NCBI GenBank assembly: GCA_014762505.1 | Contig: JABURS010000032.1 | Span: forward strand, 124,001 to 188,000 | DNA length: 64,000 bases | Direction: 5' to 3' | Origin: Chromatiales bacterium | Lineage (GTDB): Bacteria; Pseudomonadota; Gammaproteobacteria; SpSt-1174 | Shown here: in pieces, positions 34,096 through 46,315 of the stretch | Layout of the letters: each line of letters begins with the position of its first letter | Position numbering within the stretch: position 1 is the first letter of the stretch | Made by a program: the position numbers and the translations under genes | Notes under the pieces: generated by a model | Told to the model about the DNA's origin: nothing | What the model saw: the letters and a program-made list of their open reading frames with translations, nothing else | Databases searched by the model: none

Positions 34096-34380
34096 GTGTT
34101 CACACGCCGCATCCGACACTGGCGCTGGCCGCTGCTCGTCCTGCTGCTGTTCGTCAGCGCGCAGGCGGGCCTGTTCGCGCATGCCCTGGATGCCGATGCC
34201 CATGCCCACGGCGCGTCCTGTGACGCCAGCCTGCTCGCCCACTTCGGTGGCGCACCGACGTCCAGCCCGCCCGGCCTGGTCCTCCCGGATGCCCGTTTCG
34301 AGGCGCCGGTCGTTCTCCTCGCCGATGGCCTGTTCCCGTCGCACCATCATCCCTACGCGCCCCGCGCACCCCCGGTCTGA
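34096..34380 (+). CDS. Small exported His-containing protein at the head of a metal-uptake cluster
   Basis: A 94-residue protein with a GTG start and a GGAGAG ribosome-binding site seven bases upstream. A hydrophobic signal segment (WPLLVLLLFVSAQAGLF) is followed by a short mature part with His clusters (HALDADAHAHG; SHHHPYAP) and one Cys. This looks like the small periplasmic metal-related proteins found in zinc-regulated clusters. It lies 85 bases before the porin-like gene, with a hairpin between. Function unproven; a periplasmic metal chaperone or scavenger is possible. Confidence 0.6.
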   Translation: MFTRRIRHWRWPLLVLLLFVSAQAGLFAHALDADAHAHGASCDASLLAHFGGAPTSSPPGLVLPDARFEAPVVLLADGLFPSHHHPYAPRAPPV

Positions 34381-34406
34381 CCTGCTGTTCCAGCCTGTCT
34401 GAACAC

Positions 34407-34434
34407 GCACTCCGACTCCATTGGTCGGGAGTGC
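34407..34434 (+). other. Intercistronic hairpin between the His-rich gene and porin-like gene
   Basis: GCACTCC-GAC pairs with GTC-GGGAGTGC around a short loop, with a one-base bulge. It may terminate part of the transcript or protect the mRNA. Confidence 0.4.
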
Positions 34435-34465
34435 ACCATACCGTGGATTTTTCTGGGGATTGAGT

Positions 34466-35818
34466 ATGAAACCTGTCCTGTTTGCCGCCGCCTGTCTGGG
34501 CGGCGTGATGAGTCTTTCCACCGCCCTGGCGGCGGAGTCCGATACGGCCGCCCTGAAGGCCGAGATGGAGGCCATGAAGGCCGATTACGAGGCACGGCTG
34601 CGTGCCCTGGAGGCCGAGCGGGCGTTGCCGGCCATGGGTGGCAACACCCGCTCGCCTGGCAGCAATGCCTTCAACCCGGCCATCTCGGCCATCGTCATGG
34701 GCTCTTACGCAAGCTACGACGACGCGCCGGAACGCGAGCTGGCCGGCTTCCAGCTGGGCGGGGAGACCGACTACGCGCCCGAGGGCCTGAGCCTGAACGA
34801 GAGCGAGCTCATCCTCTCGGCCAATGTCGACCAGCGGTTCTCCGGCCAGCTTACCCTGGGCCTGCACGACGGCGAGGAGGGGACGGAACTCGACATCGAG
34901 GAGGCCTTCTTCGACACCCTCGGCCTGCCGGGCGGCACCGGGCTGCGTTTCGGCCGTTTCTATTCGGGCATCGGCTACCTCAACCAGCATCACCCGCATG
35001 CCTGGAATTTTCACGACGCGCCCCTGCCCTATATCGCCTTCCTCGGCGGGCAGTTCGGCGACGACGGCATCCGCGCGAGCTGGGTGGCGCCCACCGACCT
35101 CTACCTGGAGCTGGGCACGGAGTTCTACCAGGGCGGCAGCTTCCCCGGCGGGACCGACCCCGACTTCGGTGACGTGGCCACGGCCTTCGCCCGCATCGGC
35201 GGCGACGTCGGCCGGAGTCATGCCTGGCGGGCGGGGCTGTCGGCCCTGTGGGCCAGTCCGGCCGGCCGCGAGGGCGGTGGTCACGCCCATGGCGGCGCCG
35301 TGGGGCCGGACGTCGAGTTCACCGGCGATTCCGACCTGCTGATCGCCGATCTCGTCTGGAAATGGGCGCCGGACGGTGACTACCGTCGGCGCAGCTTCAC
35401 CCTGCAGGGCGAGTACTTCCACCGCGACGAGCAGGGTGCGGTGGAATTCGCCGAGGGCGGCGAGAGCGCCGATCTGGCCTACGACGGCACCCAGCGCGGC
35501 TGGTACGTGGAGGGCGTGTACGGCTTCAATCCGCGCTGGCGCGCCGGGCTGCGCTACGAGCGCCTGTCGACGGCCAACGACCTGACGGTGCTGGGCCTCA
35601 CCGCCGGCCTGACGCCGGACGAGGTGCTGGAGGAGTCCGGCCTGCAGGACGGCGACGACCCCCAGCGCTGGGGCGCCATGGTGGACTACTCGCCCAGCGA
35701 GTTCAGCCGCATCCGCCTGCAGTACAATCGCGACGAGACGCTGGGTGACAGGGTGAACAACGTCTGGGTCCTGCAGTACGTGATGAGCCTGGGCGCCCAC
35801 GGCGCCCACGCGTTCTGA
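34466..35818 (+). CDS. Porin-like outer-membrane protein with N-terminal coiled coil
   Basis: A 450-residue exported protein. The signal peptide ends near TALAA; a short coiled coil (ALKAEMEAMKADYEARLRAL) follows, as in trimeric phosphate-selective-porin-like or OprP/O-like proteins. The rest is a long series of amphipathic strands with a final aromatic residue (...HGAHAF). His-bearing loops stand out: NQHHPHAWNF and GGGHAHGG, plausible metal sites facing out or into a channel. The start has GGGGAT upstream. It ends ten bases before the ZnuA-like gene, and both are probably one operon, suggesting metal passage across the outer membrane. Confidence 0.72.
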   Translation: MKPVLFAAACLGGVMSLSTALAAESDTAALKAEMEAMKADYEARLRALEAERALPAMGGNTRSPGSNAFNPAISAIVMGSYASYDDAPERELAGFQLGGETDYAPEGLSLNESELILSANVDQRFSGQLTLGLHDGEEGTELDIEEAFFDTLGLPGGTGLRFGRFYSGIGYLNQHHPHAWNFHDAPLPYIAFLGGQFGDDGIRASWVAPTDLYLELGTEFYQGGSFPGGTDPDFGDVATAFARIGGDVGRSHAWRAGLSALWASPAGREGGGHAHGGAVGPDVEFTGDSDLLIADLVWKWAPDGDYRRRSFTLQGEYFHRDEQGAVEFAEGGESADLAYDGTQRGWYVEGVYGFNPRWRAGLRYERLSTANDLTVLGLTAGLTPDEVLEESGLQDGDDPQRWGAMVDYSPSEFSRIRLQYNRDETLGDRVNNVWVLQYVMSLGAHGAHAF

Positions 35819-35827
35819 GGAGGGGCG

Positions 35828-36727
35828 ATGAAGACACTCATGCCATGGCTGCTCATCGGCGCCCTGGCGGCCCTGCACCCGGCCCAGGCGGCCGGGTTGC
35901 GGGTCTTCGCCTGCGAGCCCGAATGGGCGGCGCTCGCCACCGAGCTCGGCGGCGAGCGGGTGGTGGTCACCAGCGCCACCCACGCCGAACAGGATGTGCA
36001 TTACATCCAGGCCCGGCCCAGCCTCATCAGTCAGCTGCGGCGGGCGGACCTGCTGGTCTGCACCGGCGCCGGCCTGGAGGAGGGCTGGCTGCCCATGCTG
36101 CTGCGCCGGGCCAACAACCCGGCCGTACAGCCGGGCCGGCCCGGTCACCTGCTGACCGCCGAGCACGTGCCCCTGCTGGGGACGCCGGACCAGGTCGATC
36201 GCGGGCAGGGGCATATCCATGCCGAGGGCAATCCGCATCTGCAGCTCGATCCACGCCATATCGCCCGTCTGGCCCCGGTGCTGGCCGAACGCCTGGCCGC
36301 GCTCGACCCGGACGGGGCGGCGCAGTACCGGGAGCGGCTGGCCGGCTTCGAGGGCCGCTGGGCCGAGGCCCTGGCCGGCTGGGAGGCGCGCGCCGCACGG
36401 CTGCACGGCCTGCGCGTGGTTGCCCACCACGAGGACTGGCTGTATCTGGCCGCCTGGCTGGAACTGGAGATCGTCGGCAAGCTCGAGCCGCTGCCCGGGG
36501 TGCCGCCGAGCAGCGGACACCTGGCGCGCCTGGAGGCCGGGCTGGCCGGGCAGCCGCCGGCGGCCATCCTGCGCACCGTTTACCAGGATTCCAGGCCCGC
36601 CGACTGGCTGGCCGCGCGTACCGGTGTGCCGGTGCTGGCGCTGCCGCACACGGTGGGCGGCGAGGCGAGTGATCTCCAGGCCCTGTTCGAGCGCATCATC
36701 ACTGCCCTGGAGGGGGTTGCGCCATGA
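35828..36727 (+). CDS. ZnuA-like metal-binding periplasmic protein of an ABC transporter
   Basis: A 299-residue cluster A-I solute-binding protein for Zn2+/Mn2+. The signal peptide ends at QAAG. Metal ligands expected for the family are visible: His58 (EQDVHYIQARPS), His137 (GNPHLQLDP), His200/His201 (VVAHHEDWLYL) and Asp254 (VYQDSRPAD). The His-rich loop of E. coli ZnuA is missing; only GHIHAEG remains. GAGGAGGGG directly upstream gives a strong start. It overlaps the permease gene by four bases. Zinc is more likely than manganese, on the basis of the three-His layout and His-rich neighbours. Confidence 0.85.
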   Translation: MKTLMPWLLIGALAALHPAQAAGLRVFACEPEWAALATELGGERVVVTSATHAEQDVHYIQARPSLISQLRRADLLVCTGAGLEEGWLPMLLRRANNPAVQPGRPGHLLTAEHVPLLGTPDQVDRGQGHIHAEGNPHLQLDPRHIARLAPVLAERLAALDPDGAAQYRERLAGFEGRWAEALAGWEARAARLHGLRVVAHHEDWLYLAAWLELEIVGKLEPLPGVPPSSGHLARLEAGLAGQPPAAILRTVYQDSRPADWLAARTGVPVLALPHTVGGEASDLQALFERIITALEGVAP

Positions 36728-37485
36728 GCCTCGAGGGGCTGGATGCGAGCATCCTGCTGCCGGCCTTCGCGGCCGGCCTGCTGGTGCTCGCCACCCACGT
36801 CCCGCTGGGGCGCGAGGTGCTGGCGCGCGGCATCATCTTCATGGACCTGGCCGTGGCCCAGATCGCGGGCCTGGGTGTGGTGCTCGGTCACGTGCTGGGC
36901 TGGGGCGGGGGCCTTGCCGTGCAGGCCATGGCCTTTGGCGCCGCGGTGCTGGGCGCGTTGCTGCTCTCGGCCTTCGAGCGGCGGCTGGCGAACGTGCAGG
37001 AGGCCTTCATCGGCACGGCCTTCGTGCTGGCGGCCAGCGCCGCCCTGCTGGTGGTGGCGCAAGACCCCCATGCCGCCGGCATGGTCGGTGACCTGCTGGC
37101 GGGGCAGGTGCTGTGGGTGGACTGGTCGCGACTCGGCCCGGTCGCCGTGCTGTACGCGCTGCTGCTGGCCCTGTGGTTCGGCCGGCCGGGCTGGCGCCGT
37201 GGTCCGCGCTTCTACGTGCTGTTCGCCCTGGCGATCACCGCCTCGGTACAGCTGGTGGGGGTCTACCTGGTGTTCGCGAGCCTCATCATCCCGGCGCTGG
37301 CCGTGCATGGCCGGGGCGGCGCCTGGCTGGCCGCCGCGCTGGGCGTGGCGGCATGGATCGCGGGTCTGGTCATCGCGGCCCTGGCCGATCTGCCGGCGGG
37401 GCCGGCGATCGTCTGGACACTGGCGGCGGCCGCCCTGGTCACGGGGCTGGCGCTGCGTGGGCGGGCGACGCGCGGTCAGTCGTGA
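36724..37485 (+). CDS. ZnuB-like metal ABC transporter permease
   Basis: A 253-residue inner-membrane permease with about eight hydrophobic segments and the ABC-3 family signatures MDLAVAQIAGLGVV (start of the domain), VQEAFIGTAFVLAASAALL and the late LVGVYLVFASLIIPA. It starts inside the ZnuA-like gene (ATGA). No ATP-binding subunit (ZnuC) is encoded beside it: the next feature is tRNA-Gly. The transporter must borrow an ATPase encoded elsewhere or be non-functional as an ABC importer. Confidence 0.87.
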   Translation: MSLEGLDASILLPAFAAGLLVLATHVPLGREVLARGIIFMDLAVAQIAGLGVVLGHVLGWGGGLAVQAMAFGAAVLGALLLSAFERRLANVQEAFIGTAFVLAASAALLVVAQDPHAAGMVGDLLAGQVLWVDWSRLGPVAVLYALLLALWFGRPGWRRGPRFYVLFALAITASVQLVGVYLVFASLIIPALAVHGRGGAWLAAALGVAAWIAGLVIAALADLPAGPAIVWTLAAAALVTGLALRGRATRGQS

Positions 37486-37545: not shown

Positions 37546-37619
37546 GCGGGTGTAGTTCAATGGTAGAACGGCAGCTTCCCAAGCTGCATACGAGGGTTCG
37601 ATTCCCTTCACCCGCTCCA
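37546..37619 (+). tRNA. tRNA-Gly (anticodon CCC)
   Basis: The acceptor stem GCGGGTG/CACCCGC is perfect and the CCA end is encoded. The anticodon stem GCAGC/GCTGC encloses loop TTCCCAA, giving anticodon CCC. The T-arm contains GGTTCGATT. It is followed 29 bases later by thiO, which has no obvious promoter of its own and may be read through. Confidence 0.95.
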
Positions 37620-38811: not shown

Positions 38812-39246
38812 ATGACAGTACCGTTTCACAGCCCGGCCAGGTCGCGCGCAGAGGTGATCGCCCTCCTGCGCGAGCACGACGTGACGCCCACGCAGCAGCG
38901 CGTGGAGATCGGGCAGATCCTTTTCAGCTGCGCCCAGCACGTCTCGGCCGAGCAGGTGCTCGCGCGTCTGGTCGACGTGGACAGCAACGTCTCCAAGGCC
39001 ACCGTCTACAACACCCTGGGGCTGTTTGCCGACAAGGGCCTGATCCGCGAAGTGGTGGTCGATCCCAGCCGTCTGTTCTACGACACCAACCTCGAGCCGC
39101 ATCACCACTTCTTCCACGTGGACAGCGGCCGGCTCGAGGACGTGGCGGCCGACCAGGTCAGCATCGGCCACCTGCCCAGCCTGCCCGAGGGCACCGAAAT
39201 CGATGGCGTCGAGGTCATCATCCGCGTACGCGGCCGCGATTCCTGA
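38812..39246 (+). CDS. Fur-family transcriptional regulator lacking CxxC zinc motifs
   Basis: A 144-residue Fur-family repressor. The winged helix has the typical VTPTQQRVEIGQIL and DSNVSKATVYNTLGLF (recognition helix). The hinge to the dimer domain carries EPHHHFFHVDSGRLEDV: the regulatory His cluster is present (97-99), but the structural CxxC pairs of Fur and Zur are absent; the only Cys is residue 40. This layout resembles Irr-type or PerR-like members rather than classical Fur/Zur. Ligand could be haem, iron or manganese; not decidable. Predicted to be translated from a leaderless transcript. Targets are unknown; no conserved neighbour. Confidence 0.85.
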   Translation: MTVPFHSPARSRAEVIALLREHDVTPTQQRVEIGQILFSCAQHVSAEQVLARLVDVDSNVSKATVYNTLGLFADKGLIREVVVDPSRLFYDTNLEPHHHFFHVDSGRLEDVAADQVSIGHLPSLPEGTEIDGVEVIIRVRGRDS

Positions 39247-39408: not shown

Positions 39409-39465
39409 TTTCTGCTAAGCTCGCCCTGGTTGGTTTTTCGTCCGATTGCTCACAGGGAGGTGCGC

Positions 39466-40011
39466 ATGCGGAACCAGGATGGTTTGACGCTGATCGAGCT
39501 GGTTGTCTCCATGGTGCTGGTTGCCGTACTGGCGGCCTGGGCCATCCCCTCTCTCTCCCATCTTCTGCAACAGCAGCGCCTGACGGTGCGCACCAACGAG
39601 CTGGTGACCGCACTGCACCTGGCCCGGACGACCGCGATCCAGCGGGGCGTGGACGTGATGCTCTGTGCCTCCGCCGATGGCATGAACTGTGGCAGCAATG
39701 CGGGATATACCCCGGGCTGGCTGGTATTCGAGGACCGGGAGCGCAACGGTCTCGTCGATGCGGGCGAACGGGTGCTGTCGATACGGCGTTTCGATGACCC
39801 GTCCGGGCCGTCCATCACCGGCAACCGCATGGTTGCCGACTATGTCTCATTCGACAGACGGGGCTACTCGCGCACCCTGGCCGGCGCCTTCCAGGCGGGA
39901 ACGCTCACGCTGTGCGGCGAGGTGGGCGAGGGCCGTGCCATCACACTGAACAGGGTCGGCCGGGTGCGCGCCAGTCGGGTGCACTGCCCGGACATGCCGT
40001 CTGGAGCCTAA
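39466..40011 (+). CDS. fimT: FimT/GspH-type minor pseudopilin
   Basis: A type IV pilus minor pilin of 181 residues. The prepilin leader MRNQDG is cleaved before LTLIELVV, with Glu at mature position 5, followed by a hydrophobic helix (VVSMVLVAVLAAWAIPSL). The C-terminal globular part is GspH/FimT-like with a two-cysteine pattern (MLCAS, MNCGS) and further Cys near the end. AGGGAGG five bases before the ATG fixes the start. It begins the minor-pilin cluster after tRNA-Thr, in the same order as in Pseudomonas. Confidence 0.88.
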   Translation: MRNQDGLTLIELVVSMVLVAVLAAWAIPSLSHLLQQQRLTVRTNELVTALHLARTTAIQRGVDVMLCASADGMNCGSNAGYTPGWLVFEDRERNGLVDAGERVLSIRRFDDPSGPSITGNRMVADYVSFDRRGYSRTLAGAFQAGTLTLCGEVGEGRAITLNRVGRVRASRVHCPDMPSGA

Positions 40012-40071
40012 AATCTCGCGTTCGTCAGTTTTTTACTTCTTTGTCAGGGTTTGACATCTATAGTAGCCGGC

Positions 40072-40578
40072 ATGAACAGACAATCCGGTTTTACGATTAT
40101 CGAACTGATGATTACGGTGATCCTGATCGCCGTGGTCGCGGCCGTTGCGGTCCCGTCGTTTCGCACCATGGTGCAGAACAACCGGATTGCCACCCAGGCC
40201 AATGGCTTCATAACGGCGATCAACCTCGCGCGCAGTGAGGCCGTGAAGCGGGGGCGTGACGTGTACGTGTCGTCTGCAAGCGGCAACACGGCCTGGGGCG
40301 GCGGCTGGCGCCTCTGGGTCGATGACAACGGCAATGGCAGTGAAGACGCCAGTGAATTACTGCGCGTGTTCGAGGCGCTGGAGGGCGGCACCACGTTGAC
40401 CAGCGTGAACGGACATACCGAGGTGCGCTATCTGGCGAACGGCTACATCTTCCTCGCCAACGCAGGCGACCCCGTGCCGACCTTCGAGCTGCGCATCCCC
40501 AACTGTACCGGGGATTCGGCGCGGGATATCGAGATCAACTTCGTCGGGCGTCCCTCGGTGACGCGCGTGAACTGCTAG
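40072..40578 (+). CDS. fimU: FimU/GspH-type minor pilin
   Basis: A minor pilin of 168 residues with leader MNRQSG cut before FTIIELMI and a hydrophobic N-terminal helix. The globular part includes RSEAVKRGRDVYV, GGGWRLWVDDNGNG and two late cysteines (PNCTGD; VNC), like FimU, which joins the PilVWXE complex that initiates pilus assembly. A TATAGT box at 40059-40064 lies only seven bases before the ATG, hinting at a local promoter with a very short leader; the ribosome-binding site is weak. Confidence 0.85.
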   Translation: MNRQSGFTIIELMITVILIAVVAAVAVPSFRTMVQNNRIATQANGFITAINLARSEAVKRGRDVYVSSASGNTAWGGGWRLWVDDNGNGSEDASELLRVFEALEGGTTLTSVNGHTEVRYLANGYIFLANAGDPVPTFELRIPNCTGDSARDIEINFVGRPSVTRVNC

Positions 40579-40588
40579 GAGGGCGGTC

Positions 40589-41089
40589 ATGATGCAATAC
40601 AGCAATCATCCGGGCCGCCAGGCCGGTTTCAACCTCATCGAGGTGCTGGTGGCGCTGGTCGTGCTGGCAATCGGTCTGCTGGGACTGGCGAGCCTGCAGG
40701 CGAGCTCGCTCAAGTTCAACCACAGCGCCTACATGCGCACCCAGGCCATCAACCTCGCCTACGACATGTCGGATCGCATTCGTGCCAATCGCTCTGCCGC
40801 ACTCTCCGGTGGCTACGAACTGGGCCTGGGTGATGGCCCTCCGGGAGCGGGATCGATCGCCTCGCAGGACCTGACGGAATGGCTCAATGCGCTGAACGCC
40901 CTGCTGCCCAGCGGAGATGGCGCGGTCTGTCGCACCAGTAACAATGCACCGACGGGGTTGGGCAGCTGCGATGGTTCGGGCGATGTCTTCGTCATCGTGG
41001 TGCAGTGGGACGACAGTCGCGGCGCGGACAGCGATGACGCCCGTGCCGCCGAGGAAACCACCCAGTTCATGCTGGTGACGGGATTATGA
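40589..41089 (+). CDS. pilV: Type IV pilus minor pilin PilV
   Basis: A 166-residue minor pilin: leader ending GRQAG before FNLIEVLVALVVLAIGLLGLASLQ, the PilV signature with a continuous hydrophobic helix, then LKFNHSAYMRTQAINLAYDMSDRIRANR, typical of PilV. AGGAGGG upstream allows ATG 40589 or 40592. It ends by overlapping the pilW start (ATGA). PilV is part of the tip-located priming complex with FimU, PilW, PilX and PilE. Confidence 0.88.
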   Translation: MMQYSNHPGRQAGFNLIEVLVALVVLAIGLLGLASLQASSLKFNHSAYMRTQAINLAYDMSDRIRANRSAALSGGYELGLGDGPPGAGSIASQDLTEWLNALNALLPSGDGAVCRTSNNAPTGLGSCDGSGDVFVIVVQWDDSRGADSDDARAAEETTQFMLVTGL

Positions 41090-42210
41090 GCATGCTTGCA
41101 CGCAATGAAGTCAGGGTGGCAGGCCACCAGCGCGGCCTCACCATCGTCGAGATCCTGGTGGCCGTGACGCTGAGCCTGATCCTGCTGGCCGGGGTCACCC
41201 AGCTCTTCATCAGCTCCAAGCGTACCTACGAGGTACAGGACGGCCTCTCGCGGCTGCAGGAGAACGGCCGGTTCGCGGTCGACTACCTGGCGCGCCATGT
41301 GCGTATGGCGGGCTATATGGGCTGCCTGTCCAACGCTGGCCTGATCACGATGCACAACAACCTCAACAATGCCGCCACGTTTGCCAACAACTTCTCGGTC
41401 GGCATCGAGGGATTCGAGGCCAATGGCACGTCGCCCGGAGACGCCTACACGATCACGGCGGAAAACCCGGCGCCTTCGGGTAACGCGGCCGGCTGGTCAT
41501 CCGCGCTGGATGCCGACCTGGTCGGCCGGGTGCTCCCCGGTACGGATGTCATCGTCGTGCGCAACGCGGCGCCATCATCCGTGGCGTTGGTCGATCCGTT
41601 CAACGACAGCGCACAGATCTTTGTCTCAAATCCCAATGATCTGCAGATTGGTGACATTCTGATGGTCACCGACTGCCAGAAGGCATCCGTCTTCCAGGCG
41701 ACAAATGTGCAGTCGACGGGCTTTGGTACCAATACGGTGCATGGTCAGGCGAACATGACGCCCGGCAACAGCAATTCGGTGTGGGGCAGTGACCAGGAGT
41801 ACACCGAAGGCGGCGAGATCATGAAGTCGGAGATGCGCGTCTTCTATGTCGGGCAGGGTGCCAGCGGCCGGCCAGCCCTGTTCCAGCGCTCGCTGCGCAA
41901 CGCCGGCGGCGGGGTGCAGCTGGTGAGCGACGAGCTGGTGGAAGGCGTGGAGAACATGCAGGTGCTCTACGGCGAGGACACGAATGGCGACCGCACGGCG
42001 GATGCGTACCGTGAAGCGGACAACGTGGCCGACTGGGGTCAGGTCGTCAGCGCACGCATTTCGTTGCTGGTGCGCAGCCCCGAGAACTCCCTTCCGGAAC
42101 CCGAGACCAATACCTTCGATGTCGGTGGCGTGGACGTCGACCCGGTCGATGATCGCCGGTTGCGTCAGGTGTTCACCACCACCATCACTCTGCGAAACAG
42201 GGCGTCATGA
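41086..42210 (+). CDS. pilW: Type IV pilus assembly protein PilW
   Basis: A 374-residue minor pilin, the largest of the set, as expected. The prepilin site is HQRG before LTIVEILVAVTLSLILLAGVTQLF. The helix continues into SSKRTYEVQDGLSRLQENGRFAVDYLARHVRMAGYMGC, a PilW hallmark. The C-terminal part has an extended beta-rich domain with VVSARISLLVRS. A second ATG at 41092 is possible. It overlaps pilX by four bases, so pilV-pilW-pilX are coupled. Confidence 0.9.
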   Translation: MSMLARNEVRVAGHQRGLTIVEILVAVTLSLILLAGVTQLFISSKRTYEVQDGLSRLQENGRFAVDYLARHVRMAGYMGCLSNAGLITMHNNLNNAATFANNFSVGIEGFEANGTSPGDAYTITAENPAPSGNAAGWSSALDADLVGRVLPGTDVIVVRNAAPSSVALVDPFNDSAQIFVSNPNDLQIGDILMVTDCQKASVFQATNVQSTGFGTNTVHGQANMTPGNSNSVWGSDQEYTEGGEIMKSEMRVFYVGQGASGRPALFQRSLRNAGGGVQLVSDELVEGVENMQVLYGEDTNGDRTADAYREADNVADWGQVVSARISLLVRSPENSLPEPETNTFDVGGVDVDPVDDRRLRQVFTTTITLRNRAS

Positions 42211-42731
42211 TGGCTCTCAAAGCAAAGATCTCAGGAGTGGAAGCTCAGCGTGGCGCAACACTGGTCGTCGCGCTGGTCTTTCTGCTGATCCTCACGCTGA
42301 TCGGTGTCACCGCCACGCAGACATCGAATCTGCAGGAACGCATGGTGGGTAACACGCTGGACGTGAACCGGGCCTTCCAGAGTGCCGAGGCGGCCCTGCG
42401 TACCGGCGAGGCCTATCTGGAGCAGGCGGTCATCGGCCCGTTCGATGGCTCGGTCAACGGGCTCTATCAGCCGAATGAAGGTGCGACGAGCAACTTCCGG
42501 TATATCTGGCAGGACCCGACAACCGGCTGGATCACGCGACCGGGCACGCTGCCCGAGGTCACACAGCAGCCCCAGTACATCGTCGAGGAAATGCCGCCCA
42601 GGCAGGACCCGCAGGGCAGTCTGGCGGCCGACGAGCCGCTGGGTGACATCCAGTTCTATCGTGTAACCGCCCGGGGATTCGGGCAGACGACCGCGACAAC
42701 GGTCATGGTGCAGTCCACCTACCGGCGCTAG
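42207..42731 (+). CDS. pilX: Type IV pilus minor pilin PilX
   Basis: A 174-residue minor pilin. The leader ends at AQRG before ATLVVALVFLLILTLIGV; Glu5 is absent, as usual in PilX. Downstream QERMVGNTLDVNRAFQSAEAALRTGEAYL is the family's conserved stretch. It overlaps pilW by four bases and leads into pilY1 after about 30 bases. Confidence 0.88.
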   Translation: MMALKAKISGVEAQRGATLVVALVFLLILTLIGVTATQTSNLQERMVGNTLDVNRAFQSAEAALRTGEAYLEQAVIGPFDGSVNGLYQPNEGATSNFRYIWQDPTTGWITRPGTLPEVTQQPQYIVEEMPPRQDPQGSLAADEPLGDIQFYRVTARGFGQTTATTVMVQSTYRR

Positions 42732-42760
42732 GCCGCACGGGTGTGATGAGGGATCAAGTC

Positions 42761-45700
42761 ATGCGCAAGTTCATCAAAACCGGTTTTGCCTTCGCCATCA
42801 GCGTCGCTGCACTGTTCAGTGGCCATGCCTGGTCGGGAACGGTCGCCCAGAAGCCGCTGTTTCTCAGTATCAACTCACCGGCGAACATCATGTTCCTGCT
42901 GGATGACTCCGGTTCCATGCAGTTCGAAGCCATGCCGGATGCGATTACTATTGAAAGATACATGTACCCGCGTGCCGACAGTGTTTATGGCGCCGGCGAC
43001 TACACCAACCAGGTGCCGACATTTGACAGCAATGACGAGCTCAACCGCTTCATGCGCTCGTCGGCGAACAACTCGATCTACTACAACCCCCAGGTCCGGT
43101 ATCGCCCGTGGTCGAAGCCGGACGGTACGCAGTTCGATAATGCGAGCACGAGTTGTGCGCCGCACAATCCATACAACACCGGTGCCGGCTGTCGGCAGTT
43201 CACCGATGTCGATGCCGATGGGGATGCGAGCACTGTCCCCAATCCTGTGAGTAACAGCGCCTACGTCCGCTGGACCAGTTTCAACTGGCTGAACCCGGGT
43301 GTGGGGATCGGGCGCAACCTGAATACGCGGACGGAGACGTTCTGGCCGGCCGTCTACTACACCTATACCGGGCCGGCCGCGGCGGGTCATTACGACGCGG
43401 CCCGCTGGAATACGGCGAACTACACCGAGACGGTCATCAATAACAAGACAGCGACCTACCCCGGTGGCCCGGCGCGTGAGGATTGCGCCAATCCCAGCGC
43501 CTGTACCTTCGAGGAGGAAATCCAGAACTTCGCCAACTGGTACACCTATTACCGCTCACGTGCCCTGCTGGCGCGGGCCGGTGCCGGCTTCGCCTTTGCC
43601 CAGCAGCGCAACAGCACGGTGCGTATCGGGTTTGCCACGCTCAACAAGGGCTTCGAGACCATCGATGGCATCTATACGCGCTCGATCGTCCGTGGTGTGA
43701 GGGAATTCAAGGACGCCAACGTGGACGCCTTCTTCGATGAGCTCTACGGTGTGGATATCCCGGCGGCCGGCACGCCGCTGCCACGCGCCCTGGAAGCAGT
43801 TGGCAACTATTACCGCAGCACCGATGACCGTGGACCCTGGAGCAATACGCCGGGTGAGGCAGGCGGTGACAGCCCCCATTCCGCCTGTCGTGGCAGTTAC
43901 ACGGTGGTCATGACCGATGGCTACTGGGACGAGACCACATTGAGTACCGTCTCGGGGAACGTCGATGGCACGACGGGTCCGACCATCAGCAACCCGAGTG
44001 GTGGCACCTACACCTATACACCGGAGCCGCCGTTCGAGGACAGTTATGACGAGACCCTGGCAGACGTCGCGATGTATTACTGGAGTCGCGATCTGAGAAC
44101 CGATCTGCCGAACAAGGTGCCCCCGAGCCCGGCAGACGAGGCCTTCTGGCAGCACATGACCACCTTCACCATCGGCCTGGGTGTGTCGGGCACGCTGGAT
44201 CCGGAAACCGACCTGCAGGGGCTGATCGACGGCAGCATCCAGTGGCCGGATGCCTCCGGGAACAACAAGGACGAACGCCGGGTGGACGATCTCTGGCACG
44301 CGGCCATCAATGGTCGGGGCGGTTACTACAGCGCCCAGGATCCGGAGAAGTTCGCCGAATCGCTGACCAATTCATTGAACACCATCCTGGGGCGTATCGC
44401 TTCCGCATCGGCAGTGGCGACGAACTCCACGCGACTCGATACCAATACGCTGATCTACCAGGCGCGTTTCGACAGCGAGGACTGGACGGGGCAGCTGCTG
44501 GCCTACGATATCCTGCCCAACGGGCAGGTGGGCGATATCATCTGGGACGCCGCCAGCCTGATCCCTGCACACGGCAGCCGGGATATCTTTACCTGGGACG
44601 ATGCGATCGGTGATGGCGTGGAGTTCCTCTGGGGCAGCCTGAATGCGGCCCAGCAGGCTGCATTGAACCAGGACATGACCGGCGCGGTAGACAGTCTCGG
44701 TGCAGACCGCGTGGCCTTCATCCGCGGCGATCAGTCGGTCGAGGGCAATAATGGCGGGACCTTCCGTAACCGCGATCGCGTGCTCGGCGACATCGTCAAC
44801 TCCGATCCGGCCTATGTCGGTACCGATGATTACGGTTATCGCATCCTTGACGGTGACGGTGGTGACGAGGGATTGAACTACTCGACATTCCGTGCGAGCA
44901 GTGCGTACCTGAACCGGACCAAGATGCTCTACGTCGGGGCGAATGACGGCATGCTGCATGCCTTCGATGCCGAAACGGGTGTCGAGAAGTTCGCCTTCGT
45001 GCCGAACGAAGTGATTCCGGCACTGAACCAACTGACCGATCCGGACTATAACCACCGCTATTTCGTGGATGGGGCTCCGCGGGCCGGGGATGCCTACCTG
45101 AACAGCACCTGGAAGACGGTGCTGCTCGGCTCCACCGGTGCCGGCGGCCGCTCCGTGTTCGCGCTGGATGTGACCAACCCCGATTCGTTCGATGAAACGG
45201 ATGTGATGTGGGAGTTCACCAACGCGGAGCTCGGTTACACGATCGGGCAGCCGACGATCGCGAGGCTGGCGGATGAGAGCTGGGTGGCGATCTTCGGCAA
45301 CGGCTACGACAGCCTGAGCCTGAAGGCGCAGCTCTTCATCGTCGACCTGGCAGACGGTTCCCTGATCAAGACCATCGATACCGGGGTGGGTGACGTCACG
45401 GTGCCGAATGGTCTGGGCACGCCCGTGCCGGTGGACATGGATGGCGACCGGGTAACGGACTACGTCTATGCCGGGGATCTGCAGGGCAACATGTGGAAGT
45501 TCGATCTGACGGCGACCAACAGCAACAGCTGGGGTATCGCCTACAAGCAGGGCAATACGCCCAAGCCCCTGTATCAGGCCTGTGCCGATGCGAACTGCAC
45601 ACAGCCGCGACCCATCACGGTACGCCCGACGGTTGGCCGTCATCCCGATGGCGGCGTGATGGTGTACTTCGGTACCGGCAAGTACTTCGAGGACGGTGAC

Positions 45701-46315
45701 AACGTCGTCGATGCCTCGACCGAGGTCGATGCCTTCTACGGGATTCGCGACAACGGATCGCGCGTGTCCAGCCGCAACAACCTGCAGGAGCAGACCATCC
45801 TGCTGGAGGCGACGGCCGCTGCGGCGAATACCCAGTTCGATATCCGCGCGATCTCGAACAACCCGGTGGACTATGCGTCCAAGTCCGGCTGGTTCATCGA
45901 CCTTGTCTCGCCCGTGAACGGGATCGAGGGCGAGCGGGTCATCAGCCAGGCGGTGCTGCGTAACGGACGCATCATCTTCAACACGGTGATCCCGTCACAG
46001 GATGAGTGCGACTTCGGTGGCAACAGCTGGCTGATGGAGCTCGATGCGGTGACCGGTGGACGCCTTAGCTACTCGGTGTTTGACGCCAACGGTGATGGCA
46101 TCATCGATGACAACGACTTCGTCACCCTGCCGGACGGCAGCAAGGTGCCGGTATCGGGTCGTGGCATGGACGGTATCGGCAAGACGCCCGGCATCATCTC
46201 GGCCGGTGAAGTCGAATACAAGTACACCAGTACCTCGGACGGGAATATCGTGGTCACGGATGAGGCCGGTGGTGGCTCGGCATACGGCCGCCAGTCCTGG
46301 CGTCAGCTGCAGTAA
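42761..46315 (+). CDS. pilY1: PilY1 pilus tip adhesin/assembly protein
   Basis: A secreted protein of 1184 residues that sits at the pilus tip, mediating adhesion, surface sensing and control of retraction. A signal peptide (TGFAFAISVAALFSGHAWS) is followed by a von Willebrand A-like domain with a MIDAS-type DDSGSM near residue 50. The C-terminal half is the PilY1 beta-propeller; a calcium-binding loop DMDGDRVTDYVYAGD (45434-45478) precedes LQGNMWKFD, the classic PilY1 signature. A second Ca-type loop DANGDGIIDDND follows near the C-terminus. The start at 42761 has GAGGGA seven bases upstream; the longer frame from 42743 is unlikely. Confidence 0.92.
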   Translation: MRKFIKTGFAFAISVAALFSGHAWSGTVAQKPLFLSINSPANIMFLLDDSGSMQFEAMPDAITIERYMYPRADSVYGAGDYTNQVPTFDSNDELNRFMRSSANNSIYYNPQVRYRPWSKPDGTQFDNASTSCAPHNPYNTGAGCRQFTDVDADGDASTVPNPVSNSAYVRWTSFNWLNPGVGIGRNLNTRTETFWPAVYYTYTGPAAAGHYDAARWNTANYTETVINNKTATYPGGPAREDCANPSACTFEEEIQNFANWYTYYRSRALLARAGAGFAFAQQRNSTVRIGFATLNKGFETIDGIYTRSIVRGVREFKDANVDAFFDELYGVDIPAAGTPLPRALEAVGNYYRSTDDRGPWSNTPGEAGGDSPHSACRGSYTVVMTDGYWDETTLSTVSGNVDGTTGPTISNPSGGTYTYTPEPPFEDSYDETLADVAMYYWSRDLRTDLPNKVPPSPADEAFWQHMTTFTIGLGVSGTLDPETDLQGLIDGSIQWPDASGNNKDERRVDDLWHAAINGRGGYYSAQDPEKFAESLTNSLNTILGRIASASAVATNSTRLDTNTLIYQARFDSEDWTGQLLAYDILPNGQVGDIIWDAASLIPAHGSRDIFTWDDAIGDGVEFLWGSLNAAQQAALNQDMTGAVDSLGADRVAFIRGDQSVEGNNGGTFRNRDRVLGDIVNSDPAYVGTDDYGYRILDGDGGDEGLNYSTFRASSAYLNRTKMLYVGANDGMLHAFDAETGVEKFAFVPNEVIPALNQLTDPDYNHRYFVDGAPRAGDAYLNSTWKTVLLGSTGAGGRSVFALDVTNPDSFDETDVMWEFTNAELGYTIGQPTIARLADESWVAIFGNGYDSLSLKAQLFIVDLADGSLIKTIDTGVGDVTVPNGLGTPVPVDMDGDRVTDYVYAGDLQGNMWKFDLTATNSNSWGIAYKQGNTPKPLYQACADANCTQPRPITVRPTVGRHPDGGVMVYFGTGKYFEDGDNVVDASTEVDAFYGIRDNGSRVSSRNNLQEQTILLEATAAAANTQFDIRAISNNPVDYASKSGWFIDLVSPVNGIEGERVISQAVLRNGRIIFNTVIPSQDECDFGGNSWLMELDAVTGGRLSYSVFDANGDGIIDDNDFVTLPDGSKVPVSGRGMDGIGKTPGIISAGEVEYKYTSTSDGNIVVTDEAGGGSAYGRQSWRQLQ

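Follow-up and report, generated by a model that had tools for sequence, protein, structure and literature searches.

A candidate operon for ATP-independent metal uptake, with an ABC-3-fold permease that lacks the canonical loop

Four consecutive genes in a 64,000-nucleotide stretch of DNA from a Chromatiales bacterium (assembly GCA_014762505.1, contig JABURS010000032.1, positions 124,001 to 188,000 of the forward strand; below, the window) encode a small, apparently exported peptide, a porin-like protein, a ZnuA-like substrate-binding protein (SBP) and a ZnuB-like permease. Both sequence and model indicate that the permease has the ABC-3 fold of ATP-binding cassette (ABC) importers, that it lacks the canonical loop, and that no ATPase accompanies it in the operon. 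We lean towards reading the four genes as a single operon that takes up a divalent metal (zinc is the likeliest) without hydrolysing ATP and that is gated translationally by the peptide, acting as a leader. Many proteobacteria carry the four-gene unit, in which a channel descended from an ATP-driven pump, its motor and grip apparently lost, probably moves metal without ATP. On a wider proposal we are evenly divided, namely that these operons represent a widespread class of SBP-dependent metal transporters whose ancestor, a type II ABC importer, lost the ATPase and the docking loop, and which now act as channels or ion-coupled carriers, each with its own metal-selective porin and metal-sensing arrest leader. 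This would be a solution like that of the tripartite ATP-independent periplasmic (TRAP) transporters, but of ABC descent. A relative of the permease occurs in about a quarter of the sampled genomes of the class (98 of 369); with motor and docking loop apparently removed, the family is in effect a natural experiment on the capabilities of an ABC importer deprived of ATP. An earlier note on this DNA had proposed a complete route for metal from outer to inner membrane, served by a shared ATPase; two features go beyond that note, the RAPP end of the peptide and the absence of the canonical loop from the permease.

The permease and the question of a partner ATPase

Relatives were compared as two overlapping sets of loci, set A (the first set, 59 loci) and set B (a named collection, 80 loci); L050/L109 and L051/L123 are examples of the overlap. 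Clustering at 90% identity groups the 135 permeases compared, that of the window among them, into 120 clusters. The window permease matches PF00950 at 49.9 bits (cut-off 20.1), with the match split into two stretches, and the profile aligns to the solved ZnuB chain 9oko_B (E 1.3e-18) with a single long gap, in which about 19 residues present in ZnuB are missing from the family. The AlphaFold model of the 253-amino-acid protein (predicted local distance difference test, pLDDT, 91.6; predicted template modelling score 0.87) superimposes on PsaB with Z 22.9 and a root-mean-square deviation (rmsd) of 3.5 over 243 aligned residues, which places it in the ABC-3 fold; BtuC ranked after PsaB (Z 19.0, rmsd 3.6, 240 residues). 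The spacing between two conserved glycines (G127 and G179 in the window) is 48-53 residues in 131 of the 135 family members, and exactly 52 in 110 members including the window; in the other four it is 64-68, with a loop that is shorter than the canonical one and unlike it. In canonical ABC-3 permeases, by contrast, the spacing was exactly 71 in 23/23 aligned, so that a cytoplasmic loop of canonical length is absent from the window permease (52 versus 71 residues). Canonical members carry sequences such as VHEDLARVEGVPV in this stretch, which, by its place between the helices, we take to be the ATPase docking site of type II importers.

Four other residues, H25, D41, Q46 and E93, are invariant in all 135 family permeases. 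At the H25 site, canonical permeases have A, C, G, S or T (mostly A or C), and at the D41 site G, A, S or T (mostly G); the Q46 site is H in 22 of 23, and the E93 site is mostly D. Because loss of the loop goes together with invariant residues specific to the family, the permease appears to be under strong constraint and to have changed in a coordinated way. With a permease kept under such constraint, it becomes possible to test directly whether ABC-derived permeases can transport without ATP. ZnuABC and PsaBCA have the same SBP family and permease fold as the window operon, which differs from them in having no ATPase, no canonical loop and no His-rich loop in the SBP, in the replacement of a conserved H by Q46, and in the novelty of D41 and H25. 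We know of no type II ABC-derived case of ATPase-free transport. Solitary S-components of energy-coupling factor transporters, such as BioY and BtuM, do transport without an ATPase module, and TRAP transporters are dependent on an SBP without being ABC systems, but the folds of both are unrelated to that of the window permease. A search of the open-licence literature, which is of course not proof of absence, turned up no account of the four-gene operon, nor any of an ABC-3 permease that works without an ATPase.

Two further groups of permeases were seen. Loci L092-L095 carry a second subfamily, with a different short loop (like RKRLSFATEEAHPPG) where the canonical loop would be. Pairs of SBP and permease belonging to a more distant family, from another class of the same phylum, are found at L228:4823-6408 and L232:4785-6319; by eye their loop is also short, and neither a ZnuC-like match nor a detectable porin homologue is present in the stretch. 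Given these pairs, the ATPase-less clade may be wider than this family.

The earlier note was correct that no ZnuC is encoded in the cluster: no ATPase open reading frame (ORF) occurs among the four genes in the ORF list of the window. Its suggestion of a shared ATPase fared less well. Five of the 98 genomes with a permease relative have weak matches only (E 1e-6 to 1e-5), which may be canonical permeases; 80 of the 98, the host among them, were examined for a partner, having been chosen mostly for completeness. In 40 of these 80, by our own count, the only ABC-3 permease to show up is that of the family itself. (A figure of 23/80 came from an earlier scan in which only 28 candidates were scored in most genomes, and it was not used as a count of absences.) Seven single-contig genomes, G082, G084, G124, G127, G133, G262 and G311, contain the full operon and no other ABC-3 permease, and their best scores with the ZnuC model range from 87 to 107 bits, where ZnuC itself reaches 319 and 329. 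Because ZnuC-model scores were not decisive alone, the AztA model and an NCBIfam classification were added. The best AztA-model scores in the seven genomes are 124-155, against 162-222 for the ATPases of canonical systems. Twenty-four ATPases of these genomes, including each genome's top scorer to both models, were classified as LptB-, DrrA/NodI-, GldA-, ABC-F-, PstB-, CysA- or cobalamin/heme/siderophore-like; L189 and L206 lay outside this set, although L189 is the same gene as the classified L250. All seven top scorers for each model were DrrA/NodI-like, ABC-F, cobalamin/heme/siderophore-like or CysA-like, and a true AztA, the positive control, was named correctly in the same classification.

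Around the operon itself, znuC is found in five loci, divergent together with znuA in L054, L124, L132 and L143 and nearby in L065. Other flanking ATPase ORFs were classified in a batch of ten and then one of four (two of them repeats after no match at 1e-45), and were ABC-F, MlaF-, PhnT/PotA-, Nik/Opp-, DrrA-, FecE/heme-, FetA- or PstB-like; none was ZnuC- or AztA-like. Those of L096 (beside a permease fragment), L148 and L156 were read by eye only, and L166 and L230 lay outside the classification. On the strength of the seven-genome and flank classifications we conclude that the operon exists without a recognisable ABC-3 ATPase. Loop spacing, co-occurrence and the ATPase scans together disfavor a shared ZnuC, and a shared ATPase is unlikely.

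Recurrence of the operon and its three other proteins

All three genes of the porin-SBP-permease set are present at 55 of the 59 set A loci and 78 of the 80 set B loci, and because the set recurs so widely, the observation is well beyond chance; recurrence in relatives had been left as a question by the earlier note. One or more genes are missing from L066, L096, L097 and L103, owing to contig ends or, on our reading, decay (L096 retains no more than a permease fragment), but these loci were kept in the counts. The genes are not always tightly packed, with 621 nucleotides between SBP and permease in L105 and 427 between porin and SBP in L064. A profile search of a phylum sample found a permease relative in 44 of 398 genomes at E ≤1e-30, many of these 44 with lower scores. 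No relative was found in viral contigs. The named collection holds at least 571 confirmed permease relatives; the 80 kept are mostly labelled Gammaproteobacteria, several with names of sulphur oxidisers, and include some of Nitrosomonadales type, two Zetaproteobacteria and single assemblies with other labels. Apart from the leader, flanking genes are little conserved: within 7 kb on either strand (set A only), the commonest families were response-regulator-like, in 11 loci, and an ABC-ATPase cluster, in eight. For structure prediction and family scans, subset alignments of 37 permeases, 63 leaders and 36 porins were used; the conservation alignments of 129 porins and 134 SBPs excluded sequences with stops or with less than 75% of the length of the window protein.

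The AlphaFold model of the porin (pLDDT 86.3) has the form of a barrel carrying a helix at the N-terminus, and its closest folds by VIA-align are OprP (Z 28.5, rmsd 4.7, 318 aligned) and OprO (Z 28.3, rmsd 2.8, 313 aligned). Pfam Porin_O_P nonetheless gave no match to the window porin at E ≤0.01, and matched only two of the 36 aligned relatives; a match to BBP2 was weak (19 bits, below cut-off). The HHPH and HAH motifs pointed out in the earlier note are real: H176, H178 and H448 are found in every one of the 129 porins, and H445 in 99% of them. In the model, the loop with H176 and H178 lies between strands E158-166 and E198-207; this loop between strands 5 and 6 is presumably the pore-constriction loop in porins of this kind. 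H445 and H448 belong to a GAHGAH tail that follows the last strand, in a low-confidence part of the model. The invariant histidines stand where OprP has an arginine ladder. With histidines fixed both in the loop and at the C-terminus, the earlier idea of a route from outer to inner membrane in which porin His are important holds up, minus its shared ATPase, and a His-bearing porin suggests a dedicated entry for metal through the outer membrane.

The SBP matches PF01297 at 116.9 bits (cut-off 29) and 1pq4 at E 5.5e-12, with H58, H137 and H201 aligned to the histidines of the latter. H58, H131, H137, H201, E84 and E220 are invariant in 134/134. It indeed has no His-rich loop, as had been noticed earlier, but only GHIHAEG, whereas the host's own ZnuA has the full loop (HGQHTHDDHGHAGH). 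The four genes are real and the observation in the earlier note stands. The SBP and permease genes overlap by 4 nucleotides, and both products score above their Pfam cut-offs.

The small ORF at the head of the operon encodes a hydrophobic segment, by eye an export signal, followed by H29, H36, H38, C42 and H49 and a C-terminal RAPP. Leaders were called by rule as small ORFs ahead of the porin in which R[A/G/S/T]PP starts at most 16 residues from the end, and loci with less than 400 nucleotides 5' of the porin were excluded from the test. Such a leader is present in 46 of 51 testable set A loci and 63 of 71 testable set B loci, i.e., in 109 of 122 together, or, with loci clustered at 90% permease identity, in 92 of 105; 13 of the 122 have none by this rule, and the match in L060 is probably spurious, having no Cys/His pattern. 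For background, 69 of the 5218 ORFs of 40-200 amino acids in set A loci satisfy the rule, targets included. In an alignment of 63 leaders, the window's included, R90, P92 and P93 are invariant and H29 and C42 are conserved at 90% or more. In most leaders the Cys stands 47-50 residues ahead of RAPP, the window having 48; where there is a CxxC, its spacing to RAPP is 43-46, not counting a distant second CxxC in L059. The leader of the sibling locus L048 has an identical tail, and its first half and tail are nearly identical to those of the window leader. From these patterns, the small ORF, which is real as the earlier note supposed, is probably an arrest-type upstream ORF of the CruR/DUF2946 kind; with RAPP in so many loci, this is a better reading than a periplasmic carrier. 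The RNA between leader and porin is also more stable than its shuffles, with a mean minimum-free-energy z of -1.74 over 100 loci, 32 of them below -2, compared with -0.56 (13/100) for a control inside the SBP gene and -0.23 (7/99) for one ahead of the leader. The window hairpin taken alone is not significant (z -1.20 and -1.06) and was not called as an intrinsic terminator, and no sigma-70 promoter was found by consensus 5' of the window leader.

Among the closest published systems is CruR-bfrG of Bordetella pertussis (PMC9426467). There too a metal-uptake operon is headed by a short leader that is exported, bears metal ligands and ends in RAPP, with an outer-membrane protein gene in second place and a similar spacing from ligand to RAPP. 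The second gene of the window operon differs in encoding an OprP-type porin, not a TonB receptor, and the window leader has His and one Cys instead of a strict CxxC. The same paper puts the CXXC and RAPP of CruR 45 residues apart, a spacing conserved in its family, and reports that mutating either motif disturbs regulation; arrest at the PP codons was later demonstrated in vitro (PMC12992588). The word zinc is absent from the main text of both papers, and ABC and porin are absent from that of PMC9426467. The window operon adds to the RAPP-headed operons one for metal uptake whose composition our searches did not turn up in the literature. In Rhodobacter capsulatus, CutFOG (PMC9973294) similarly has an exported nascent sensor with a proline-rich tail and a hairpin ahead of the next gene, but it controls a multicopper oxidase, not uptake, and its hairpin covers the Shine-Dalgarno sequence. 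ZrgABCDE of Vibrio (PMC9817125) is an extra zinc system too, regulated by Zur and including ZrgD, a DUF2607 member of no known function; it differs in having its own ATPase and no porin. Separately from the DUF2946 question, six of the 63 leaders gave weak matches to Pfam DUF2607, the ZrgD family, so ZrgD might be an arrest leader too; as only two weak DUF2607 matches occurred across the 369 genomes, this stays a lead.

Mechanism, metal and rival explanations

In the mechanism that we propose, scarcity of metal would let the ribosome stall at RAPP during translation and export of the leader, and the downstream genes would stay on; once the nascent chain captured metal with its H29/H36/H38/C42/H49 cluster, the stall would be relieved and the operon turned off, as published for CruR with copper. 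The porin would admit metal past its constriction-loop histidines and pass it on at the His-x-x-His tail, to be taken up by the three-His site of the SBP, a protein whose family is evident from sequence and whose metal is presumed. The permease would then take the metal from the SBP and release it into the cytoplasm, perhaps by passive or ion-driven transport via H25, D41, Q46 and E93. Gene order, conservation, the lost loop and the lack of a recognisable partner ATPase can be read from sequence; the stalling, the identity of the metal and the independence from ATP are what we infer.

Zinc is the likeliest metal on sequence grounds. SBP and permease both belong to Zn/Mn-type families. Zur-like boxes were scanned for with a 13-base pattern, allowing two mismatches, over up to 1200 nucleotides 5' of the porin (stretches were shorter at contig ends). 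A box was found in 12 of 123 loci, the window being part of the sample, whereas 3' of the permease just one of these loci has a box. Eight of the 12, from seven permease clusters, have no znuC match in the fetched stretch, which was short for some loci. Four of the 13 leaderless loci (L104, L141, L155 and L171) have no RAPP leader by the rule yet do have a box, which suggests that translational zinc control was exchanged there for transcriptional control.

Several observations weigh against import without ATP under a zinc-sensing leader. On the transport side, equating the missing loop with the ATPase-coupling helix is presumed from its place and from general knowledge of the fold. The host genome encodes ZnuC, so sharing is possible there, and in the related loci L091 and L098 a gene for a FetA-like (iron efflux) ATPase lies 3' of the permease on the same strand. 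The AztA-type ATPase beside the second ABC-3 permease of G349 scores just 89 bits with the ZnuC model, and the AztA-model score of 155 comes close to the 162 of ZnuC, so the model scores by themselves are not decisive against an ATPase; borrowing of one of the cobalamin/siderophore type is conceivable. On the side of control, the window leader has S45 after C42 and hence no CxxC, which many relatives do have, and its DUF2946 score of 13.6 bits is below the 23.7 cut-off. Compared with its sibling, 14 codons of 94 changed synonymously and 23 non-synonymously, i.e., without synonymous excess. No Zur-like box was found upstream of the window operon with the 13-base pattern at up to two mismatches, a check that the earlier note had proposed; a single match to the 10-base Zur core has three mismatches. 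Four of the 12 boxes elsewhere sit between the leader and a divergent znuA, and DUF2946 leaders are mostly copper-linked in the literature, making copper the main rival metal.

If the permease were an ordinary ABC permease, borrowing the chromosomal ZnuC or another ATPase elsewhere, the ZnuC and ZnuB on another contig of the host, the five loci with a neighbouring znuC and the two with a FetA-like gene would find a simple explanation. We give this a slim chance, in view of the family-wide loss of the loop, the half of the permease-bearing genomes that have no canonical ABC-3 permease, the other ATPase types that are top scorers in the seven single-contig genomes, and the unrelated types of the remaining classified ATPases near the operon. 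The SBP and permease might instead form a sensor or chaperone complex of the inner membrane, reporting or buffering periplasmic metal. No energy source is visible, and the charged residues, which are strongly conserved, might be there for binding and not for transport; the 253-residue model, however, has no cytoplasmic output domain, no flanking family occurs in more than 11 set A loci, and a porin in the operon points to uptake, so that we see only a small chance of this. Rather better placed, while still unlikely, is the same architecture with copper or another metal as the substrate and the leader a true CruR-type copper sensor. CruR and CutF leaders are copper-responsive, 20 of the 63 aligned leaders match DUF2946 at E ≤0.01, and CxxC is common among relatives. 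Against copper stand the Zn/Mn-type families of SBP and permease, the upstream Zur-like boxes, eight of them with no znuC match, and the single Cys and several His of the window leader; in addition, CutF-like proteins with His motifs only are tied to Ni/Co, not Cu, in published work. Import of zinc without ATP is the reading that we favor.

Gene layout, host genome and neighborhood

Positions of the features discussed are given in the table below. The gene upstream of the leader is a divergent thiS, and the next feature found 3' of the permease is a tRNA at 37546.

Features of the operon, in window coordinates
Feature	Position	Strand	Remarks
Leader ORF	34096..34380	+	GTG start, 94 amino acids
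Codons for RAPP, presumed ribosome arrest motif, one codon ahead of stop	34363..34374	+	From sequence
Hairpin between leader ORF and porin start	34407..34434	+	No U-run right after; not significant alone
Porin, OprP/OprO fold with N-terminal helix	34466..35818	+	ATG start, 450 amino acids
Porin H176, H178	34991..34999	+	Loop between strands 5 and 6 (own count)
Porin C-terminal GAHGAH with H445, H448	35798..35809	+	Model confidence low from residue 446
ZnuA-like (cluster A-I) metal-binding SBP	35828..36727	+	299 amino acids; PF01297
ZnuB-like ABC-3-fold permease	36724..37485	+	253 amino acids; PF00950
Site of missing permease loop (residues F152-R162)	37177..37209	+	G127-G179 spacing

The host assembly (2.77 Mb in 43 contigs, listed as 100% complete) has the operon on contig C32. 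Away from it, on contig C9 (G000, L088:1-3500), znuA is divergent from znuC and znuB; by eye, the intergenic DNA holds a Fur/Zur-type gene ahead of znuC and, before that gene, a Zur-like box or palindrome (GTTATAATATAAC). Since classical zinc uptake by znuA, znuB and znuC is present there, the window operon is an additional system. The earlier note had regarded its proposal as refutable by a complete znuABC elsewhere combined with lack of metal regulation of the cluster; the former exists, and the latter is unlikely given the predicted leader.

Downstream of the operon, a Fur-family regulator is encoded at 38812-39246 (+ strand); it scores best with Irr/IrrA models, at 139.6 bits, just under the cut-off of 150. 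Irr has been studied in alphaproteobacteria, a group to which this regulator does not belong. The ORFs at 39430-46315 (+ strand) resemble, by eye, minor pilins of type IV pili followed by a large PilY1-like protein.

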